Positions 41,337 through 52,741 of a DNA stretch of 64,000 bases are shown here, piece by piece. The stretch is from Rhizobium rhizogenes (GTDB taxonomy: Bacteria > Pseudomonadota > Alphaproteobacteria > Rhizobiales > Rhizobiaceae), in the NCBI RefSeq assembly GCF_002005205.3, contig NZ_CP019701.2, forward strand, positions 2,232,001 through 2,296,000, in the 5' to 3' direction. Positions within the stretch are counted from its first letter, which is position 1. The number at the start of each line of letters is the position of its first letter. The position numbers and the translations under genes are program-made. The notes beneath the pieces were generated by a model, which was not told where the DNA came from, ran no database searches, and saw only the letters and a list, made by a program, of their open reading frames with translations.

Positions 41337-41357
41337 TTCTTAACTTAATTTTAAGAA
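41337..41357. promoter_or_regulatory. Inverted repeat upstream of the porin gene and after the kinase gene
   Basis: TTCTTAA and TTAAGAA are separated by 7 bp. It may terminate the two-component operon. Read as CTTAAC-TTAAT-TTTAAG it also matches 10 of 12 positions of the CTTAAG-N5-CTTAAG box found at 48607 and 52725. The rest of 41131-41388 holds only AT-rich sequence suited to a porin promoter. Confidence 0.35.
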
Positions 41358-41388: not shown

Positions 41389-42819
41389 TCATGGCCCAGC
41401 ACCGCTCCGTGGTGCGACGGAGCGGATCTCCAGCCGAACACAGAAGCCGGGATCGAGGTCGAGGAACAGCACCCTGCCCCGATGAAGCTCGGCCGCCTTC
41501 TGCACGAGATTGAGGCCAAGGCCGGCACCGGAGGAATTGGTGTTGATGCGATGGAACGGCTCGAATACCTGCTCGCGTTCCGCAACGGGTATGCCCGGGC
41601 CTTCATCACAGACATCTATGGTTCCGGTTGCCCCAACCCGAACGACAATTGCGCCCCTGCCGCCGCCATGATCGATGGCATTGCGGATGAGGTTGACGAC
41701 CGCCATCTCGATGATCGAGGTCTGGACCGTGAAGAGAGCCTTTCCTTCGCTCGGCTCGAAATCGAACTCATAACCGGCATCCATCGCAATCGGCGCAAGA
41801 TCGGTCGCGATGCGTTCGACGAGAACATTCAGATCCTGCTCTTCGGCAGGCAGTTCCACCGCGCCCACCGCCTGCATTTCAAGAAGCTGATGCGCGACGC
41901 GGGTGAGGCGGTCGATATCCGCCCGCAGCTGCCGGCTCAGCTCGTCATCGGGAAGAAGATCGGCCCGGACGCGCGCAATCGCAATCGGCGTCCTCAGTTC
42001 ATGGGCGGCATCGGCCAAAAAGCGGTTGCGGCGATTATAGCCCTCGTCCAGTTTCGAGAGCGCAACATTGAAGGCGTCCACCAGCGGAATGATTTCACTC
42101 GGCACCTTCGAACGATCGATCCGGGCGGAACGGTTCTCAAAATTGATCGATTGTGCCTGGGCGACCGTTTCCATGAGACCGCTCAGCGAACGGCCAACCG
42201 CACGGGGCGTCACCAGCAATGTCGCAATACCCGTCAAGAGCAGCATGGGCACAACGGCGACAAGGATGATGAAGCCCACGCCGGGCAGCACGGTCAGCCA
42301 GCGGATGGCACCATCGGCATCCTTTTCGAGATCCAGCTGCACATTGATCCACAGACTGATGCCGTCATTCGGGAAGCCTTTTTCCGTCCCGGCAATGAAC
42401 TGCAGCCGCCCGGCCGGCGTATCGCGGTTTTCCATGGTGGCCCGGACCGTTTCCCCGGCCTCCAGACGCGCTCTCTCGATGCCCCGGGGAAACACCGCTT
42501 CCAGAGCGGCCGCCGGGATATCCCCATATTGCAGCACGATTTCGTCGGCGTCCCGCACGACAAACCAGAGATCGGGATAGCGCTGCTTCAGCGCTTCCAG
42601 ATCGGGCGTCGCCGACACCTGTGCCCGACCCTGCCCATCCTTTGTCACGCTTTCCGCAATGATGCGCGCGGCCTCTTCATTGGCGCCTTCCAGCCGCGGA
42701 TCGATGATCCAGATCCAGCCGACGAGAAGAATGACGAAAAGAACGAGAAAAAATGCCTGCAAGGCGAAAAGGCGCTTCATCAGCCCCCATCGCAGGGATC
42801 GGTTGCGCTCCGGTCTCAT
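41389..42819 (-). CDS. Two-component sensor histidine kinase
   Basis: 476 residues. An N-terminal membrane helix (about residues 16-38), a periplasmic domain of about 140 residues and a second helix (about 178-205) are followed by HAMP, HisKA and HATPase domains. The phosphorylated His is in AHELRTPIAIARV, the N box is NLIRNAIDH and the G boxes are DEGPGIP and GAGLGLNLV. The start overlaps the response-regulator stop by 4 bp. The signal is unknown. Confidence 0.92.
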   Translation of the reverse strand: MRPERNRSLRWGLMKRLFALQAFFLVLFVILLVGWIWIIDPRLEGANEEAARIIAESVTKDGQGRAQVSATPDLEALKQRYPDLWFVVRDADEIVLQYGDIPAAALEAVFPRGIERARLEAGETVRATMENRDTPAGRLQFIAGTEKGFPNDGISLWINVQLDLEKDADGAIRWLTVLPGVGFIILVAVVPMLLLTGIATLLVTPRAVGRSLSGLMETVAQAQSINFENRSARIDRSKVPSEIIPLVDAFNVALSKLDEGYNRRNRFLADAAHELRTPIAIARVRADLLPDDELSRQLRADIDRLTRVAHQLLEMQAVGAVELPAEEQDLNVLVERIATDLAPIAMDAGYEFDFEPSEGKALFTVQTSIIEMAVVNLIRNAIDHGGGRGAIVVRVGATGTIDVCDEGPGIPVAEREQVFEPFHRINTNSSGAGLGLNLVQKAAELHRGRVLFLDLDPGFCVRLEIRSVAPRSGAGP

Positions 42820-43490
42820 GTCTTTGCCCGGATGAGATAACCAATGTTGCGCACGGCTCTTATCTCCACCGTCGCTTCCGCCTGCGCCAGCTTCTTGCGG
42901 ATGCGCGAGATATGCGCATCGAGCGCATTGGACTCGATCTCATCGTCGAGCGTATAAACCGCCTCGATCAGGCTCGACCGTGTCACGATGCGGTTCGGAC
43001 GCCGCATCAGCGCTTCAAGGGCCAGATATTCCCGACGCCGCAACTCGAGGACGGAACCCGCAACACTGACTTCATTGCTTTTCGGATCGATACTGAGATT
43101 TCCGAAAACCGTATATTTGTCGGAAATGGAAGGGCCGCGCCTGTGAAGGGCCCTTAGGCGGGCAAGCAATTCCTCGATTGCGAAAGGCTTGGCGAGATAA
43201 TCATCCGCCCCCGCATCCAGCCCATCGACCCGGTGATCGACGCTTCCAAGCGCCGTCAGAACCAATATCGGTACGGAATGTTTCCGGCGGCGAAGCGAGG
43301 ATACGAGGCTCAGCCCCTCGCCATCCGGCAGGCGGCGATCCAGAACCAGCACATCGTAGGAGCCATCCCGCGCAAGCGCATCGGCATCGCTGATGGTGCT
43401 GACATGATCGGCAAGCACATCACGCCGGCGCAGGGCCTCGAGCAGCGCACGCGCCATTTCGGGTTCATCCTCAAGAAGCAGGATTCGCAA
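42816..43490 (-). CDS. OmpR family response regulator
   Basis: 224 residues from TTG 43490 with a GGGGGA Shine-Dalgarno upstream; a much longer in-frame ORF to 43637 adds an unconserved tail and is rejected. The receiver has acidic pocket LLEDEPE, phospho-Asp in DVLVLDRRLPDG and Lys in LAKPF. The C-terminal winged helix includes LELRRREYLALEALM and DAHISRIRKKL. It partners the kinase encoded immediately downstream. Confidence 0.92.
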   Translation of the reverse strand: MRILLLEDEPEMARALLEALRRRDVLADHVSTISDADALARDGSYDVLVLDRRLPDGEGLSLVSSLRRRKHSVPILVLTALGSVDHRVDGLDAGADDYLAKPFAIEELLARLRALHRRGPSISDKYTVFGNLSIDPKSNEVSVAGSVLELRRREYLALEALMRRPNRIVTRSSLIEAVYTLDDEIESNALDAHISRIRKKLAQAEATVEIRAVRNIGYLIRAKT

Positions 43491-43684
43491 TGACTTTCCC
43501 CCAAAGACGAGCTCTCGCCATCTCCACCACTGTTCGGTGAAGGTTGCAGGTAGATTGCAGGCGGGCCGGCCTTCTTCTTGTAGCACCGCAACCGACGTAA
43601 TCCGACTGGCATCGCAGGCGTTTTGGTGACACCACATTACTGTCCCACGTGTCGTCCGGACATGCCGTGAACAGCGAGCGGGCG

Positions 43685-46525: not shown

Positions 46526-47887
46526 TCATAACTCAAGCGATACCGCGAACCGCTGACCGAATTGCGAAAACTGCAATCGCCCGCCCAGCCGGTCGATTGC
46601 CATCTTGACGATGGCAAGCCCAAGGCCGCTTCCACCCGGTTCCGATCGCGGCGAACGGTAGAAGCGCTGCAGCACCCGTTCCTGCTCCTCCACCGCGATC
46701 CCCGCCCCTTCGTCGATGACCACCACGTTCACCTTGCCGTTTGCCAGTTCCGCCCGGCATTCCACCGTCGATCCCTTCGGCGAGTGCTGCACGGCGTTTT
46801 CCATCACGTTGCGGATCGCAAGACGAAGCAGGGACCGATCCGCCTCGATGAGGATCGTATCCGCCTCTTGCGAAAGCCGGCAGGTAATTTCAACCGCGCG
46901 TGCTCGCCTGAGCGGCTCCAGCTCCTGTATGACATCAAGGATCAGACGGGGAATGTCGACGCCGGCTTTCGTAGCCTGCGCTTCGGCGGCATCGACGGCA
47001 GCTAGGTCGATAAGCTGTTTCGCCATCCGGCTTGTCCGGTCGACGCTTTGCTCGATGCGCCGCAGCGCCTGTTGCTGCACCTCGGGATCGGTGGAGCGCA
47101 TGGCCACCTGCGCCTGCGTCTTCAGCCCGGCAAGCGGCGTCTTCAATTCATGTGCGGCATAGGTCGTGAACTCGCGTTCCCTTTCCCGCGTCGCCTGAAC
47201 ACGCGCCAGAAGGCTGTTCAGCGCATGGATCATCGGCCGAAGCTCTGATGGCGTTCCCTTGTCGGCAAAGCCGTGGAGTTCAGTCGCGTCGCGTGCTTTC
47301 ATGCCGTTTGCGAGCTTTTGCAGGGGCGCAAGCCCCCGGGAAACACACAGCCAGATAAGGCCAGCCATCAGCGGCATGATGAAAAGCGCCGGATAAAGAA
47401 GCCCCTTGATGACATCGTCAACCAGCCGGTCGCGAACCTCGACACTGTCGCCCACCAGAACCCGGACACCGAGGTCGGGTTTCACGACCGCATAGACGCG
47501 CCATTCGATGCCGTTGATGACCGTATTCTGGAAGCCCGAGGCATGATCCGAAAGGGAAGCATCCGGGGCGCTGTCCGATTTGCTGAGCAGACGGCCGCTG
47601 ATGGACCAGATCTGGCAGGCGAGCTGGCGTTCGTAGGAGGGTACCGCCGCCGCATCAGCGTTCGCGTCCTCATCATGCGTCGGTGAATGGCCGTCTATCA
47701 GGCGGATATCGACAGGGCGGTCGCCGACGAGGGATCCGACCATTCTTGCCGATTCCACCAGCCGCGCATCGAGAACATGCTCCAGCCGCGCCTTCGTGCT
47801 GGTATAGATCCACACGCAGGCCGACAGCCAGACGAGGCCCGTCATCAACAGAAGCACGGTAAACAATCTTGCCCGGATCGACATCAC
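46526..47887 (-). CDS. Two-component sensor histidine kinase (QseC-like)
   Basis: 453 residues. Membrane helices at about 8-28 and 166-188 bound a periplasmic domain containing one Cys (ERQLACQIW). The HisKA motif is AAHELKTPLAGL, the N box VMENAVQHSP and the G boxes DEGAGIA and GSGLGLAIVKM. It overlaps the response-regulator stop by 4 bp. The neighbouring dsbD and DsbA-fold genes make a redox or envelope-stress signal plausible. Confidence 0.92.
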   Translation of the reverse strand: MMSIRARLFTVLLLMTGLVWLSACVWIYTSTKARLEHVLDARLVESARMVGSLVGDRPVDIRLIDGHSPTHDEDANADAAAVPSYERQLACQIWSISGRLLSKSDSAPDASLSDHASGFQNTVINGIEWRVYAVVKPDLGVRVLVGDSVEVRDRLVDDVIKGLLYPALFIMPLMAGLIWLCVSRGLAPLQKLANGMKARDATELHGFADKGTPSELRPMIHALNSLLARVQATREREREFTTYAAHELKTPLAGLKTQAQVAMRSTDPEVQQQALRRIEQSVDRTSRMAKQLIDLAAVDAAEAQATKAGVDIPRLILDVIQELEPLRRARAVEITCRLSQEADTILIEADRSLLRLAIRNVMENAVQHSPKGSTVECRAELANGKVNVVVIDEGAGIAVEEQERVLQRFYRSPRSEPGGSGLGLAIVKMAIDRLGGRLQFSQFGQRFAVSLEL

Positions 47888-48546
47888 GCAACCCTCCCGA
47901 CGCGGTAACCGACGCCGCGCACCGTCTCGATGAAACCGGCGCCCAGCTTGGAACGAAGCTTGTGGATGTGGACCTCGATGGTGTTGCTTTCCACATCCTC
48001 CTGCCAGCCATAGAGCTTTTCTTCCAGAACCGGCTTTGAAAAAATCATGCCGGGATTCTGCATGAGGGCATGGATGATCGCAAATTCGCGGCGCGACAGC
48101 GCAATGACACTGTCATCCTTCTTCGCCACCATCTTCGCCGGATCGAGCGTTACGCCCAGCGCCGACAGCGTGCCTTCGGAACGGCCCTCGCCGCGGCGGA
48201 TGATCGCCCGCAGCCGCGCGGCAACCTCATCAAGATCGAAAGGCTTGCCCAGATAATCATCCGCGCCGGCATCGAGGCCGCAAATCTTGTCCGTGGTCGC
48301 ATCCTTGGCGGTGAGCAGGAGGATTGGTACCCGGTTGCGTTCATTGCGGGTGTGGCGCAGAAGATCGAGACCTGACCCGTCAGGCAACATCACATCAAGG
48401 ACAACGGCATCGAAACGGCAGTTCTCGAGGGCGATTTTTGCATCGCCAAGCGTCATGACGGCATCGACGGTGAAGCCGGCAAGCTGCAGCCCGACACGAA
48501 GACCATCAAGCAGGACATCATCGTCCTCGACCACCAACAGACGCAT
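47884..48546 (-). CDS. OmpR family response regulator (QseB-like)
   Basis: 220 residues from MRLLVVEDDD; an ATG five codons earlier is less likely. Acidic pocket VVEDDD, phospho-Asp in DAVVLDVMLPDGSG, Lys in LGKPF and the winged-helix segment NTIEVHIHKLRSKL are present. It is divergent from dsbD with a 142-bp gap. A CTTAAG-N5-CTTAAG box in this gap matches the binding-site style of the PmrA/QseB branch. Confidence 0.93.
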   Translation of the reverse strand: MRLLVVEDDDVLLDGLRVGLQLAGFTVDAVMTLGDAKIALENCRFDAVVLDVMLPDGSGLDLLRHTRNERNRVPILLLTAKDATTDKICGLDAGADDYLGKPFDLDEVAARLRAIIRRGEGRSEGTLSALGVTLDPAKMVAKKDDSVIALSRREFAIIHALMQNPGMIFSKPVLEEKLYGWQEDVESNTIEVHIHKLRSKLGAGFIETVRGVGYRVGRVA

Positions 48547-48606
48547 TGAGCACTCCATCATTCCGACACACGGGTATTTTGATGCGCGGGAACCTGAAAA
48601 CCGAAC

Positions 48607-48623
48607 CTTAAGGCTGGCTTAAG
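48607..48623. promoter_or_regulatory. QseB/PmrA-type response-regulator box, dsbD promoter
   Basis: CTTAAG-GCTGG-CTTAAG: two perfect hexamers spaced 5 bp, centred in the divergent promoter between the response-regulator gene and dsbD. The copy at 52725-52741 is identical at 16 of 17 positions when read on the other strand. Confidence 0.65.
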
Positions 48624-48688
48624 CTTCCAGCCGGAAGCCTGCGCCATCCATGGCTTATCCCACAAGGCCTACCCCATAAGGAAAGAGA

Positions 48689-50551
48689 ATGCGTTTCAAT
48701 TTTTCGTTCGTGCTCCTCGTTCTCATGTCCATTTGCGGACCGGCGCTCGCGCTCGGTCCGCCGATGGACATGGCGGATGCGTTCAAGCTTTCGATAGACC
48801 GCACGGGAACGGCGGCCACCTTCCGCTGGCAAGTCGCCGAGGGATATTATCTCTATCGGGAGAGCCTGCAGGCCAGCACTGAGGACGGAACGAAGCTCGA
48901 TCTCAGGACGCAGGCCGGCGAGATGAAGGATGATCCCGGCTTCGGCAACACCGAAGTCTATTTCGGGCAAGCCGCCGCCACGCTCGCCGACGCGCCGCAG
49001 ACGATGAAGCTGACATTTCAGGGATGCCAGGATGGCGGCATCTGCTATCCCTTCAGAACGGTCGCCATCGATGGGTTGCGGATCGAAGCGGAGGCGCCGT
49101 TCGGCATAAGGCCGCAGGAACCGCCCGCATTTCAGTCCTTCGCCCTGATCGCGCCGTCCGCGGAACCGGAAAAGGCTGAGCAGTCAGTACCTTCACCCGT
49201 ACCCCCGGCCGAGCCGGGCATGGTGGAAGGTTTTCTTGCCCGGGGCGGCACGGCGCTGCTTCTCGCTTCCTTCATGGGTCTTGGCGTACTCCTCGCATTC
49301 ACGCCCTGCGTATTTCCCATGTACCCCATCCTCGCGGCCACGCTTGGCCGGCAGGGCGCTTCACTGTCGCCCGGTCGCAGTTTTCTCCTGTCCTCAACCT
49401 ATGTCGTCGCGCTTGCCGCCGCCTTCAGCCTGTTCGGCATACTGGCCGCATGGCTTGGCCAGAGCTTCCAGATTGCCCTCCAGTCGCCACCGGCCATTCT
49501 CATCACCGCCGCCGTCTTTATCATTCTGGCGATCGCCAGTTTCGGCATGGTCGAGGTCCAGCTTCCGGCCGGCCTTCGCGACCGGCTGGCGCGATCGCAG
49601 CGTTCGCTCGGCGGATCGTTCGGCTCGACCGCCATTCTCGGTTTCAGCTCGGCGCTGCTGATCGGCCCCTGCGTGACGGCGCCGCTTGCAGGCGCACTTC
49701 TCTATATCGCCAAGAGCGGCAACCTGCTGCTCGGCGCAGCAGCGCTCTTTGCGCTCGGCATCGGCAAGGGCATTCCCCTCATCCTCATCGGCACCTCCGG
49801 CGCGGCATTGCTGCCGCGGGCCGGCGCATGGATGGCGCAGATACGTTGGCTGTTCGGCTTCATCTTCCTTGCCACCGCGATCTGGTATCTCGACCGGCTC
49901 ATTCCTCCATCCGCAACGCTCGCGCTTTCCGCAGCGCTGCTCGTTATCATCGGTGTTTTTTTCGGTGCTCTCGACGCGCTGCCGCAACAGGCCGGCATTG
50001 GCCGCCGGCTGATGAAATCGGCCAGCCTTCTTTCCATGCTCTACGGAGCGTTTCTCGCTTTTGGCGCGGCAAGCGGCAGCACCAGCATGCTCCAGCCGCT
50101 GCAATTCTCCGGCAGCCCGGTCGCCAGCCGCTCCCTGCCCGGCCTGACAAAGGCGAGTTTTGCAACGGTGAGTTCCAATCAAGAACTGAAAGCCGCGGTC
50201 GCTGACGCAGGAAAGCCAAGCCTCGTCTACTTCACCGCGGACTGGTGCGTTTCCTGCCGCGTCATCGAACGCTCCGTTCTGAGCGATCCACAGGTCGCGG
50301 AAAGCCTTAAGGATACGAACCTTATCTCGGTCGATCTTTCGGACATGACGTCAGACAAACAGCAATTGATGAAGGATAGCAATGTCATCGGCCCGCCGAC
50401 CATGCTGTTCTTCGACAAAAAAGGAACCGAACTCCCCTCCATCCGCATGGTGGGCGAAATTTCGGTCCGTTCACTCATCGATGCGGCCGCGCAAACGCAG
50501 CAGGCGCTTGCAAAACCGGCAATCGACAATACCGCAGGAGCCCGCCAATGA
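48689..50551 (+). CDS. dsbD: Thiol:disulfide interchange protein DsbD
   Basis: 620 residues in the three-domain DsbD order. A signal peptide ends near ALALG. The periplasmic alpha domain has the Cys113/Cys119 pair (GCQDGGICYPF). A central membrane domain of about eight helices holds the paired Cys in FTPCVFPMYP and IGPCVTAP. The C-terminal thioredoxin domain has Cys520-V-S-Cys523. It carries electrons from cytoplasmic thioredoxin to periplasmic partners. The following DsbA-fold gene overlaps by 4 bp. Confidence 0.94.
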   Translation: MRFNFSFVLLVLMSICGPALALGPPMDMADAFKLSIDRTGTAATFRWQVAEGYYLYRESLQASTEDGTKLDLRTQAGEMKDDPGFGNTEVYFGQAAATLADAPQTMKLTFQGCQDGGICYPFRTVAIDGLRIEAEAPFGIRPQEPPAFQSFALIAPSAEPEKAEQSVPSPVPPAEPGMVEGFLARGGTALLLASFMGLGVLLAFTPCVFPMYPILAATLGRQGASLSPGRSFLLSSTYVVALAAAFSLFGILAAWLGQSFQIALQSPPAILITAAVFIILAIASFGMVEVQLPAGLRDRLARSQRSLGGSFGSTAILGFSSALLIGPCVTAPLAGALLYIAKSGNLLLGAAALFALGIGKGIPLILIGTSGAALLPRAGAWMAQIRWLFGFIFLATAIWYLDRLIPPSATLALSAALLVIIGVFFGALDALPQQAGIGRRLMKSASLLSMLYGAFLAFGAASGSTSMLQPLQFSGSPVASRSLPGLTKASFATVSSNQELKAAVADAGKPSLVYFTADWCVSCRVIERSVLSDPQVAESLKDTNLISVDLSDMTSDKQQLMKDSNVIGPPTMLFFDKKGTELPSIRMVGEISVRSLIDAAAQTQQALAKPAIDNTAGARQ

Positions 50552-51156
50552 CCCTTACACGCCGACAGCTTGTCGCAATGGCCGGCCTTGCCGCCATTGC
50601 TCCCCCCTCATTTGTTTTTGCCGAGACAGACCCGACAAGCCGGGAGATGGTGCTGCACGATCCGGATGCCCCGGTCCTTGGCAATCCGAAAGGCGACGTG
50701 ACGGTGGTGGAATATTTCGACTACCAGTGTCCCTATTGCAAATCCTCCTACGGCATGGTGCGCGACGTGGTCGAACAGGATGGCAAGGTGAGGCTTGTGC
50801 TGAAAGACTGGCCGGTCTTCGGTGGCGCATCGATCATGGCCGCGCAGGCGGTGCTCGCCAGCGCCAGGCTCGGCAAATATGAAAAAACGCTCGACGCCAT
50901 GTTTCACACGCCGAACAAGCTGCAGCAGGCCGATGTCGAAAAGGCCCTCAAGAAAGCGGGCCTGACCTTCGACGGCGTCGGCAAGGCCGTCATCGAGCAT
51001 CAGGCATGGATTTCCGGCCTGCTGGACCGGAACTGGGTACAGGCCGCCGCCTTTAAATTCGTCGGCACGCCATCATTTGTGGTGGGAACGACGAGCTTTG
51101 CCGGTGTCCTCGACCGCAAGGGCCTGAAGGAAGCAATCGCCAAGGCACGGGGATAG
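50548..51156 (+). CDS. DsbA-fold thiol:disulfide protein (CPYC)
   Basis: 202 residues with a signal peptide that looks twin-arginine (TRRQLVAMAGLAA). The thioredoxin-like core carries Cys61-P-Y-Cys64 (YFDYQCPYCKSS) and the cis-Pro region FVGTPSFVVGT. It overlaps dsbD by 4 bp, so it is probably kept reduced by DsbD and works as a DsbG/DsbC-like reductase or protector rather than an oxidase. The family is DsbA/Com1-like. Confidence 0.9.
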   Translation: MTLTRRQLVAMAGLAAIAPPSFVFAETDPTSREMVLHDPDAPVLGNPKGDVTVVEYFDYQCPYCKSSYGMVRDVVEQDGKVRLVLKDWPVFGGASIMAAQAVLASARLGKYEKTLDAMFHTPNKLQQADVEKALKKAGLTFDGVGKAVIEHQAWISGLLDRNWVQAAAFKFVGTPSFVVGTTSFAGVLDRKGLKEAIAKARG

Positions 51157-51209
51157 GACGAGACGGCAAAGGGCATCGCCACTGCGATGCCCGGCCGGAA
51201 TGTTAAAGC

Positions 51210-51242
51210 GATGGTTTCAGTCCGACTGGACCTGAAACCATC
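51210..51242. terminator. Bidirectional terminator between convergent thiol-redox genes
   Basis: GATGGTTTCAG (51210-51220) pairs with CTGAAACCATC (51232-51242), with further TCC/GGA pairing inside after a one-base bulge. It separates the dsbD operon from the L,D-transpeptidase operon. Confidence 0.7.
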
Positions 51243-51254
51243 ATTCTCCGAACG

Positions 51255-51917
51255 TTAAGCCTGTTCACGCGCTCTTTTGAAAAGATCGGTAAAGGCTTCC
51301 GCGCTCTGTACCGCACCGGGGACGAGGAACTTGCCGATGATGAAAGCAGGCGTTCCCGTCAATTGCAGCGACATCGCCTGTTCATGATTGCGCGCAAGCA
51401 GATCATCGATCTCCGCCGCTTTCGACTTCATGTCGCGCTCGAGACGGGCAAAGTCGATGCTTGTCGCACGCACGGTGTCGCGCATCTCGTCGGCCTTCAC
51501 CTTCGGCGTCTTGATCGCCATCAGCGCATCATGGACGATGTGATAAGCGTCCTGATATTTCGCCGCCAGCGCCAGTCGCGCTCCCTCGACGGAGTCGGGC
51601 GTTATGATCGGCCAGTCCTTGTAGACCATCCTGACATCCCCGTCTGCCGTGACCGCATTGCTCATGGGAACGGCCGTCTTTTTGCACCAGGGGCAATTAT
51701 AGTCGAGAAAGGCGACCATGGTGAGCTTGCCGGCGGGATTGCCGGAAACGGGTGCCGCCGGATCGCGCAGGATCATCTCGAGCTTCAGACCGTTGGGCGA
51801 GGCTGCTGCCGGCGATGCGACGGCCGAGACCACCGAAATCGAGCCGAAGAGAAAGGCACGGCGTCTGAGCCCAGCAAGGGCTGAAACATCCGCGCGGTTT
51901 CGAACATCATGTGCCAT
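51255..51917 (-). CDS. DsbA-fold thiol:disulfide protein (CPWC)
   Basis: 220 residues with a twin-arginine-like signal (RRRAFLFGSISVV) ending near AAASP. The active site is Cys75-P-W-Cys78 (FLDYNCPWCKKT) and the cis-Pro loop is LTGTPAFIIGK. It is similar in layout to the CPYC protein on the other strand, so the two are diverged paralogues. It follows the L,D-transpeptidase gene by 34 bp in one operon. Confidence 0.9.
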   Translation of the reverse strand: MAHDVRNRADVSALAGLRRRAFLFGSISVVSAVASPAAASPNGLKLEMILRDPAAPVSGNPAGKLTMVAFLDYNCPWCKKTAVPMSNAVTADGDVRMVYKDWPIITPDSVEGARLALAAKYQDAYHIVHDALMAIKTPKVKADEMRDTVRATSIDFARLERDMKSKAAEIDDLLARNHEQAMSLQLTGTPAFIIGKFLVPGAVQSAEAFTDLFKRAREQA

Positions 51918-51951
51918 GGTGATGGGCCTTCTTTCTTTTCCGTACCGGTCG

Positions 51952-52680
51952 TCAGGCAGCGAGTTGCTGGCGTTTCGAGGGGTCGGGAATAACCACGATG
52001 GTGCTGCCGTCCCTCACATTGTTGAAGAGGTCGATGACATCCTGGTTCAACAGCCGGATGCAGCCGGAAGAAACCGCCTTTCCGATCGAAAAGGCCTCCG
52101 GTGTTCCGTGCAGGCGGTAAAGCGTGTCCCGGCCGCCCTGATGAATGTAGAGCGCCCGCGCGCCGAGCGGGTTCTTGAGGCCGGGCGGCATTCCGCCATT
52201 GGCGATGCTGTAGGGCTGGAGGCTGGGCTGCCGCGCCACCATCTCGTCCGGCGGGGTCCATTTCGGCCATGCCCGCTTGTAGGCGACAATCGCCCGGCCG
52301 GCCCAGGAGAAGCCGTCCCGGCCGACGCCGATCCCGTAACGGGTCGCCTTGCCGCCCGGCAGAATGTGATAGAGGAACTTGTTCGGCGTATCGACGATCA
52401 GTGTGCCGGGCTTTTCGTCGGTCGGATAATCGACGACCTGCCGCCAGTAGCGGGGGTCCACCTGCTTGATGTTCACCGCCGGGACCGGAAACGTCTCATC
52501 GGGAAGCGCCGCATACATTGCTGGCGTGGCCGGCGCAGGCGTCTCGGGCAAGGGTTCGTCGTTCCTCGACAGCGTCGCCGGCTTTGGCGGCTGACCGGAC
52601 GTGGCGCAACCCGCCAGCAGGCCCGCAAGCCCAAGGGCAAGAAGATTTCTGCGGGTGGTGAAAATCGGGATATCGTGCAT
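51952..52680 (-). CDS. L,D-transpeptidase lipoprotein (YkuD domain)
   Basis: 242 residues. The N-terminus has TRRNLLALG and the lipobox LLAGC (Cys25), so the protein is lipid-anchored in the envelope. The YkuD domain carries His191 (LHGTPEAF) and catalytic Cys207 in SSGCIRL. It makes 3-3 peptidoglycan cross-links or links proteins to peptidoglycan. Apart from the acylated Cys25, Cys207 is the only cysteine, so it is sensitive to oxidation with no disulfide partner. It leads an operon with the CPWC DsbA-fold gene. Confidence 0.92.
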   Translation of the reverse strand: MHDIPIFTTRRNLLALGLAGLLAGCATSGQPPKPATLSRNDEPLPETPAPATPAMYAALPDETFPVPAVNIKQVDPRYWRQVVDYPTDEKPGTLIVDTPNKFLYHILPGGKATRYGIGVGRDGFSWAGRAIVAYKRAWPKWTPPDEMVARQPSLQPYSIANGGMPPGLKNPLGARALYIHQGGRDTLYRLHGTPEAFSIGKAVSSGCIRLLNQDVIDLFNNVRDGSTIVVIPDPSKRQQLAA

Positions 52681-52724
52681 TCTGGGCTGTGTCTCCTATT
52701 CGGCGACACATAGCCGGTCCCCAC

Positions 52725-52741
52725 CTTAAGCCAGTCTTAAG
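52725..52741. promoter_or_regulatory. QseB/PmrA-type response-regulator box, L,D-transpeptidase promoter
   Basis: CTTAAG-CCAGT-CTTAAG lies 45-61 bp upstream of the L,D-transpeptidase start. Read on the minus strand (spacer ACTGG) it differs from the dsbD box (spacer GCTGG) at one position. No other feature was seen in the gap to 52846. Confidence 0.65.

Follow-up and report, generated by a model that had tools for sequence, protein, structure and literature searches.

A probable DsbRS-type regulon of Alphaproteobacteria joins dsbD and L,D-transpeptidase genes through a conserved CTTAAG-N5-CTTAAG box

DsbRS of Pseudomonas is described as a two-component system (TCS) with a copper-binding kinase that induces dsbDEG (PMC10141476; PMC11195947), and in P. 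fluorescens a DsbR site is predicted between dsbR and dsbD (PMC13101516). Here we describe a locus of Rhizobium rhizogenes in a window of 64,000 nucleotides (contig NZ_CP019701.2, positions 2,232,001 to 2,296,000; the genome has 5.48 Mb in three contigs), in which a TCS, dsbD, two genes for DsbA-fold proteins and a gene for an L,D-transpeptidase (LDT) lie together. Protection of YbiS-type LDTs by DsbG/DsbD is established, and for Escherichia coli Depuydt reportedly found in 2009 that DsbD-DsbG protects the LDTs YbiS, ErfK and YnhG. An earlier note on this DNA had proposed that the adjoining TCS co-regulates dsbD, the DsbA-fold genes and ldt; as far as sequence comparison goes, this is strongly supported by conservation of a shared box, by gene content and by a search with the motif alone.

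The box has 17 bp, and its two copies, CTTAAGGCTGGCTTAAG in the divergent promoter of dsbD and the response regulator gene and CTTAAGACTGGCTTAAG ahead of ldt, differ at a single position when oriented to dsbD and ldt (spacers GCTGG and ACTGG). The gap is 65 nt to dsbD, 44 nt to the start of ldt and 60 nt to the regulator gene, whose start is likely the internal Met of MRLL at 48546. These two boxes with their one mismatch had been seen in the earlier note; both turn out to be exact matches to CTTAAG-N5-CTTAAG and to be the sole exact pair of the genome, 4.1 kb apart. Apart from them, the window holds one match with two mismatches (0.36 matches are expected at two mismatches or fewer), and the whole genome 27 with two mismatches and one with a single mismatch; no protein of the system is encoded within 1.5 kb of the latter. 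Since the relaxed pattern read backwards, as a control, likewise gives two exact matches in this genome, frequency alone is not decisive. Decisive instead are position and conservation. In ten copies of the window type (seven from Agrobacterium, three from Rhizobium), 16 of the 17 columns are invariant in each box, and the upstream flanks have diverged; the flank upstream of ldt differs between two Agrobacterium subgroups and Rhizobium.

Conservation was followed in the best 80 named genome loci by DsbD relatedness, a sample of closest relatives and not a census. Stop-to-stop frames were searched with a protein panel from the window and plasmid loci, and dereplication at 95% DsbD identity left 70 loci. 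The nearest are from 'Rhizobium rhizogenes' GBBC3284 (98%) and A. tumefaciens UMA610 (95%), and these named relatives put the window in Agrobacterium. The plant symbiont Rhizobium lusitanum SEMIA 4060 has the locus in the form seen in the window (L080). Loci with upstream sequence were taken as testable, the truncated L139 being left out; L081 and L122 were scored by reading and the other 67 by script. A box with at most one mismatch stands ahead of dsbD in all 69 testable non-redundant loci (62 exact, seven with one mismatch). The arrangement reaches well beyond what had been seen in the earlier note, which had proposed to search relatives for the box upstream of dsbD and ldt. The 65 LDT genes at the 70 loci comprise 30 downstream in the dsbD operon, 21 with their own box, ten divergent across the dsbD box and four with neither arrangement; altogether, 61 are in the operon or box-linked. 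An LDT is encoded nearby in 53 of the 70 loci, as against about 4% of the time for a random stretch of 15.8 kb of the R. rhizogenes genome, which has 14 YkuD genes. The LDT-containing arrangement is not confined to the window: it is common among the Hyphomicrobiales loci examined and recurs in two Rhodobacterales records, Paracoccus aminophilus and Roseovarius indicus, with the LDT gene inside a dsbD-tlpA operon. Without dereplication, the 80 loci encode the response regulator in 66 cases, TlpA in 68, a DsbA-fold protein in 76, an LDT in 59, DsbG in 16 and a Blh-like protein in 27. Gene order has been shuffled while content and box were kept, which argues for selection on co-regulation.

The motif by itself also leads to the system. 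As the relaxed pattern has background, evenly drawn genome sets of order, class and phylum were searched with the oriented form CTTAAGNCTGNCTTAAG, the R. rhizogenes genome being inside each count. It matched 33/397 genomes of the order (43 sites), 2/289 of the class and 5/299 of the phylum; read backwards, it matched 7, 0 and 2 genomes, respectively. The rarity of the oriented motif in the class and phylum sets indicates that the system is accessory. From 33 of the 35 other motif-positive genomes one locus each was inspected; proteins of the system stand beside the motif in 31 of these loci (TlpA only in L178, regulator and kinase only in L179; in L160 an LDT gene is directly across the motif from the regulator gene). 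The remaining two, L158 and L162, sit at other PmrA/QseB-type TCSs. At L158:1501 an exact box precedes a glycosyltransferase-like gene behind a PmrAB-like pair, and it looks as if PmrA-class regulators share the half-site. Exact boxes at such systems, together with the background of the relaxed pattern, could mean that the boxes bind another PmrA/QseB-class regulator or are a coincidence of palindromic hexamers, but this is very improbable, given that the box is kept beside the same regulator gene in most loci, that flanks diverge around nearly invariant boxes and that the motif-only search gave the result above. Chance boxes were rejected on the genome counts, the motif-only search, the flank divergence and the conservation at dsbD loci.

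Within the genus, 18 of 39 genomes have an exact site of the relaxed pattern. A box pair 4.09-4.13 kb apart is found in eight of the 39, R. rhizogenes included, and four further genomes (G011, G015, G022, G024) have a rearranged system in which the boxes adjoin LDT, DsbA-fold and Dsb genes. An extra exact CTTAAGGCTGGCTTAAG was seen in G013 and G025 (L065:9922, L066:9915); next to it is an autotransporter-like gene and, some 300 bp away, a GlxA-like gene, both named from reading frames without a family search. The extra box is either a further regulon member or chance. In G013 an LDT frame is split into two pieces next to an intact box (L067:7982-8736). Another locus is decayed (L061:8715-11136): DsbD is fragmented, and a box precedes each of the LDT gene, a DsbA-fold-like gene and the DsbD remnant.

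The system is also carried by plasmids. Four Rhizobiaceae plasmids have the order HK-RR / dsbD-tlpA-ldt-dsbA-ldt (HK, histidine kinase; RR, response regulator), with bigR/blh/TauE/YeeE-type genes and dsbG nearby, although their annotation varies. On these plasmids dsbG has its own box, exact in two and with one mismatch in two. On one of the four, genes for a copper ATPase and a multicopper oxidase (MCO) lie about 10 kb off. In Ensifer sp. PDNC004 the system is split over replicons: on one plasmid the TCS and an LDT gene face each other across an exact box, and on another plasmid dsbD-tlpA-dsbA has a one-mismatch box and no adjoining response regulator of this type. The same strain has three neighbouring LDT genes, on both strands, beside the TCS (L205:3657-6232).

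The kinases of the box system have a cysteine in common. For this comparison 77 matches met the length rule, and removal of those below 200 bits or identical left 68 distinct kinases, some still close relatives. All 68 have a Cys in a motif that is mostly RQL[SA]CQ[IL]W, and this is the sole sensor-domain cysteine common to at least 30% of them. All of the 120 homologues listed, out of 653, have it as well. Five QseC-like kinases lack it, none of them with Dsb genes in the stretch read: QseC of PDB 2kse, L158 and L162 (both 3 kb loci only), L208 and L210. A copper-binding cysteine, Cys82, was reportedly described by Yu et al. in 2022 in the DsbS sensor of Pseudomonas aeruginosa. In a dsbG/RR/HK/dsbD cluster of Cupriavidus the kinase has the aligned Cys, and the DNA contains GTTAAC-N5-GTTAAC, again a repeat of 11-bp period; neither a CTTAAG box nor an LDT match was found in the 10.7 kb read. 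This cluster bridges to the DsbRS of Pseudomonas.

The TCS had been called QseBC-like in the earlier note. QseC and QseB are the best NCBIfam matches of kinase and regulator, and to this extent the name is apt, though both proteins are far below the equivalog cut-offs (QseC 252.7 versus 475, QseB 226.2 versus 345), and membership in QseBC was rejected. PmrAB was rejected likewise (PmrA 220.2 versus 330, PmrB 156.9 versus 314); the closest solved structure to the regulator is BasR/PmrA (E 5.8e-48). In gene content and sensor cysteine the system resembles DsbRS more than QseBC, which is merely the nearest named family. Features of the DsbRS type found in the window are the kinase/regulator pair adjoining and divergent from dsbD and the single conserved sensor-domain Cys. 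In place of dsbE/tlpA and dsbG, the operon partners in the window are two DsbA-fold proteins and the LDT.

The genes of the locus are listed in Table 1. As the earlier note had it, the units dsbD-dsbA1 (plus strand) and ldt-dsbA2 (minus strand) converge and each has a DsbA-fold gene; each gene identity is supported by Pfam and NCBIfam matches. DsbD scores above the NCBIfam cut-off for protein-disulfide reductase DsbD (464.3 versus 330 bits), and the gene for DsbA-fold protein 1 shares 4 bp with dsbD. Among solved structures, those of the Com1/ScsC branch lie nearest to both DsbA-fold proteins: 3gyk is the closest for each, and ScsC (4gxz) matches protein 1 at E 9.2e-11 and protein 2 at E 3.3e-14. 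A Thr preceding the cis-Pro is typical of reduced proteins like DsbC and DsbG, not of the oxidase DsbA. The NCBIfam cut-off for DsbG was missed by protein 1 (19.9 versus 124), and protein 2 is without a listed DsbG match. The LDT has the YkuD domain and the SxGCxR-type Cys motif of YkuD L,D-transpeptidases. It contains two Cys in all, Cys25 of the lipobox and the catalytic-type Cys207 in SSGCIRL; the single non-lipobox Cys noted before is thereby confirmed. About 3 kb to the left of the locus is a second OmpR-type pair, RppA/PmrA-like (window 41389-43637), which recurs beside other Agrobacterium copies; a weak box with two mismatches lies at 41339, past the stop of its kinase gene.

Table 1 Features of the dsbD/ldt locus in the window
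Feature	Position	Strand	Characteristics
Sensor histidine kinase, QseC-like (DsbS-like)	46526..47887	-	Pfam 2CSK_N, HisKA, HATPase_c; Cys91 within RQLACQIW, sensor domain
Response regulator, OmpR family, PmrA/QseB/DsbR-like	47884..48561	-	Pfam Response_reg, Trans_reg_C
Box 1, CTTAAGGCTGGCTTAAG	48607..48623	+	Divergent RR/dsbD promoter; CTTAAG-N5-CTTAAG, exact
dsbD, 620 aa	48689..50551	+	Pfam N-terminal, transmembrane and CVSC thioredoxin domains; NCBIfam PRK00293
DsbA-fold protein 1, Com1/ScsC-like	50548..51156	+	Pfam Thioredoxin_4, DSBA; CPYC; GTP at cis-Pro motif
DsbA-fold protein 2, second gene of ldt unit	51255..51917	-	Pfam DSBA, Thioredoxin_4; CPWC; GTP at cis-Pro motif
ldt, lipoprotein-type L,D-transpeptidase (YkuD)	51952..52680	-	Pfam YkuD 69.9 bits, cut-off 23.4
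Box 2, CTTAAGACTGGCTTAAG on ldt strand	52725..52741	-	Before ldt; CTTAAG-N5-CTTAAG, exact

The LDTs of the system do not have one origin. Dereplication at 80% reduced 104 LDT rows to 51, 45 from clusters and six other LDTs of the R. rhizogenes genome (the query-retrieved subset of its 14 YkuD proteins), and the tree was midpoint-rooted. Cluster LDTs form two deep groups, each joined by other LDTs of that genome. None of 200 bootstrap trees united all cluster LDTs in a single clade, so the system contains two or more LDT lineages. The window LDT belongs to a 20-row set composed solely of cluster LDTs (99/99 support); because of long branches, finer placement is unsure.

Altogether, we probably see a DsbRS-type regulon of Alphaproteobacteria in which a thiol-stress sensing kinase and a regulator acting on CTTAAG boxes induce DsbD, reductases and the LDT, and in which the LDT would be repaired. 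The shared box, the linkage to the TCS, the LDT membership and the sensor cysteine are supported by the comparisons; phosphorylation-dependent binding, activation, the signal and LDT repair we infer. The kinase would sense, with its one invariant sensor-domain Cys, a thiol-attacking agent, most probably copper, with oxidants or reactive sulfur as further possibilities. It would then phosphorylate the OmpR/PmrA-class regulator, which would bind the two CTTAAG half-sites 11 bp apart and activate DsbD, which would bring electrons into the periplasm, the DsbA-fold, TlpA or DsbG proteins, reducible by DsbD, and the YkuD L,D-transpeptidase. Because its activity needs one reduced Cys, the LDT may be both victim of the stress and client of the repair, and induction would therefore replace the enzyme and also supply the reductant that keeps it active. 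In this way 3-3 cross-links or protein-wall tethers would be preserved. Copper is reported to inhibit LD-transpeptidases via their Cys thiols (PMC6593411), and according to a review the LDT YbiS is one of the rare proteins of the periplasm whose thiol is reduced (PMC9144841). The functional idea of the earlier note, that the LDT cysteine stays reduced through this unit, is plausible; copper or thiol stress as the likely signal is an addition to it. It is tempting to go one step further and to assume a dedicated cell-wall thiol-repair response in Alphaproteobacteria, with a Cys-bearing kinase that senses copper or thiol attack, a widely conserved box and joint provision of a reductant chain and a fresh single-Cys LDT client, an idea that we consider quite possible and put forward tentatively.

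Several observations weigh against the reading as a DsbRS-type regulon with LDT repair. Background matches of the relaxed pattern exist: in G008, G009, G021, G028, G030 and G036, six of the 18 genomes of the genus with a box, sites occur only apart from the system, and of their 11 exact sites the eight examined in loci of at least 3 kb have no panel protein beside them. The records of Sphingomonas (L212) and Roseovarius (L214) lack a box at the system when up to one mismatch is allowed. The DsbA-fold proteins may serve other clients. No LDT is encoded within about 7 kb in 17 of the 66 named loci with the response regulator, 16 with Caulobacterales names and one from an unclassified alphaproteobacterial metagenome-assembled genome. 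Copper genes are near few loci only (CopA and MCO at L052, an MCO match at L054), and a Blh-like sulfur protein is matched in 27 of the 80 named loci, so that the signal may be sulfur-related. Several of the 11 background sites have the form CTTAAGCGCAGCTTAAG, which recurs in G008, G009 and G036 (L008:1501, L009:1501, L021:1501) with no system protein within 1.5 kb; a box with the spacer CTGCG stands ahead of an LDT gene in two Shinella loci (L056, L094). At the Sphingomonas and Indioceanicola loci no LDT was found within the 18.7 kb read.

The Caulobacterales-named loci without a nearby LDT imply that the Dsb arm must have other clients, and they fit the view that one envelope stress response raises Dsb proteins and LDT independently of each other, the LDT not being a client of the Dsb enzymes. 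The Cpx system of E. coli, which induces ldtD (PMC4791840) and has dsbA in its regulon (PMC6593411), is a precedent for such parallel outputs. However, the partner here is the reducing branch (DsbD, TlpA, DsbG, ScsC-like proteins), not DsbA/DsbB, and the LDT gene is often within the dsbD operon (30/65); we regard parallel outputs as a serious yet rather doubtful alternative. A variant of the same regulon with reactive sulfur or sulfide as signal is unlikely: the sensor Cys would be persulfidated, and the Dsb proteins would reduce persulfidated or misbridged periplasmic thiols, including that of the LDT. The bigR/blh/TauE/YeeE genes beside the plasmid versions and the frequency of Blh-like proteins speak for it, but for DsbRS, the relative that has been characterised, a response to copper is described (PMC10141476); the two signals are not exclusive.

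The regulon with LDT repair would bear on the question of how an enzyme with a catalytic-type cysteine endures the periplasm, which is oxidising and exposed to copper. LD-transpeptidation is reported to be essential in Agrobacterium tumefaciens, with about 30% LD-crosslinks (PMC11527210). A word search of the accessible text of this study found none of the words Dsb, disulfide, thioredoxin and copper, and in that of a review on LDTs (PMC12729407) Dsb was likewise missing; in a paper on Caulobacter and copper (PMC8224329) the words sought occur solely in the reference list. A full-text literature search, with most subscription papers outside its coverage, retrieved no recognised report of a TCS/DsbD/LDT regulon in Alphaproteobacteria. 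What is new is the class of target, LDTs, which is widely conserved; the regulatory architecture is that known from DsbRS. Where a conserved regulon couples LDTs with DsbD and its partners, it suggests which LDTs are possibly dedicated to stress and which reductases may serve them, and the promoter box is a handle for testing the signal. Such a regulon would also explain in physiological terms why copper and LDT activity are reportedly linked. Under the tentative idea of a dedicated thiol-repair response, mending cross-linking enzymes by reduction would be a selected function and not a side activity of DsbG, and at least two LDT lineages would have been drawn into that response.

How does the system compare with those known? 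Boxes of PmrA/QseB are direct repeats of a hexamer with an 11-bp period, and the window shares with them this type of repeat, the OmpR-type regulator and BasR/PmrA (8jo2, 4s04) as nearest solved relative; unlike there, the targets differ, and the regulator is below the curated PmrA and QseB cut-offs. The Scs proteins (suppressor of copper sensitivity) belong to a copper context and have a DsbD-like partner. ScsC structures with the DsbA fold are among the matches of both window proteins, but here a canonical DsbD is present, and a TCS with an LDT. With DsbD-DsbG and the LDTs of E. coli the system shares the combination of a reductase fed by DsbD with LDTs that have a single cysteine. We know of no dedicated operon or shared box that joins them in E. 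coli, whereas gene order and box link them here. Cpx is similar in that one TCS raises a Dsb protein and an LDT, LdtD (PMC4791840, PMC6593411), but it serves general envelope stress, raises the oxidising DsbA, has a different regulator and is not a dedicated locus. Closest is DsbRS-dsbDEG of P. aeruginosa, with kinase and regulator divergent from dsbD, Dsb-fold partners, a predicted intergenic regulator site and kinase control of a reducing Dsb operon; that operon has dsbE and dsbG and no LDT as described in the accessible parts of PMC10141476 and PMC11195947, in contrast to the TlpA/ScsC-like proteins, the LDTs, the CTTAAG-N5-CTTAAG box and the alphaproteobacterial lineage here. The system is therefore best read as an alphaproteobacterial variant of the Pseudomonas DsbRS-dsbDEG system that recruited LDTs.

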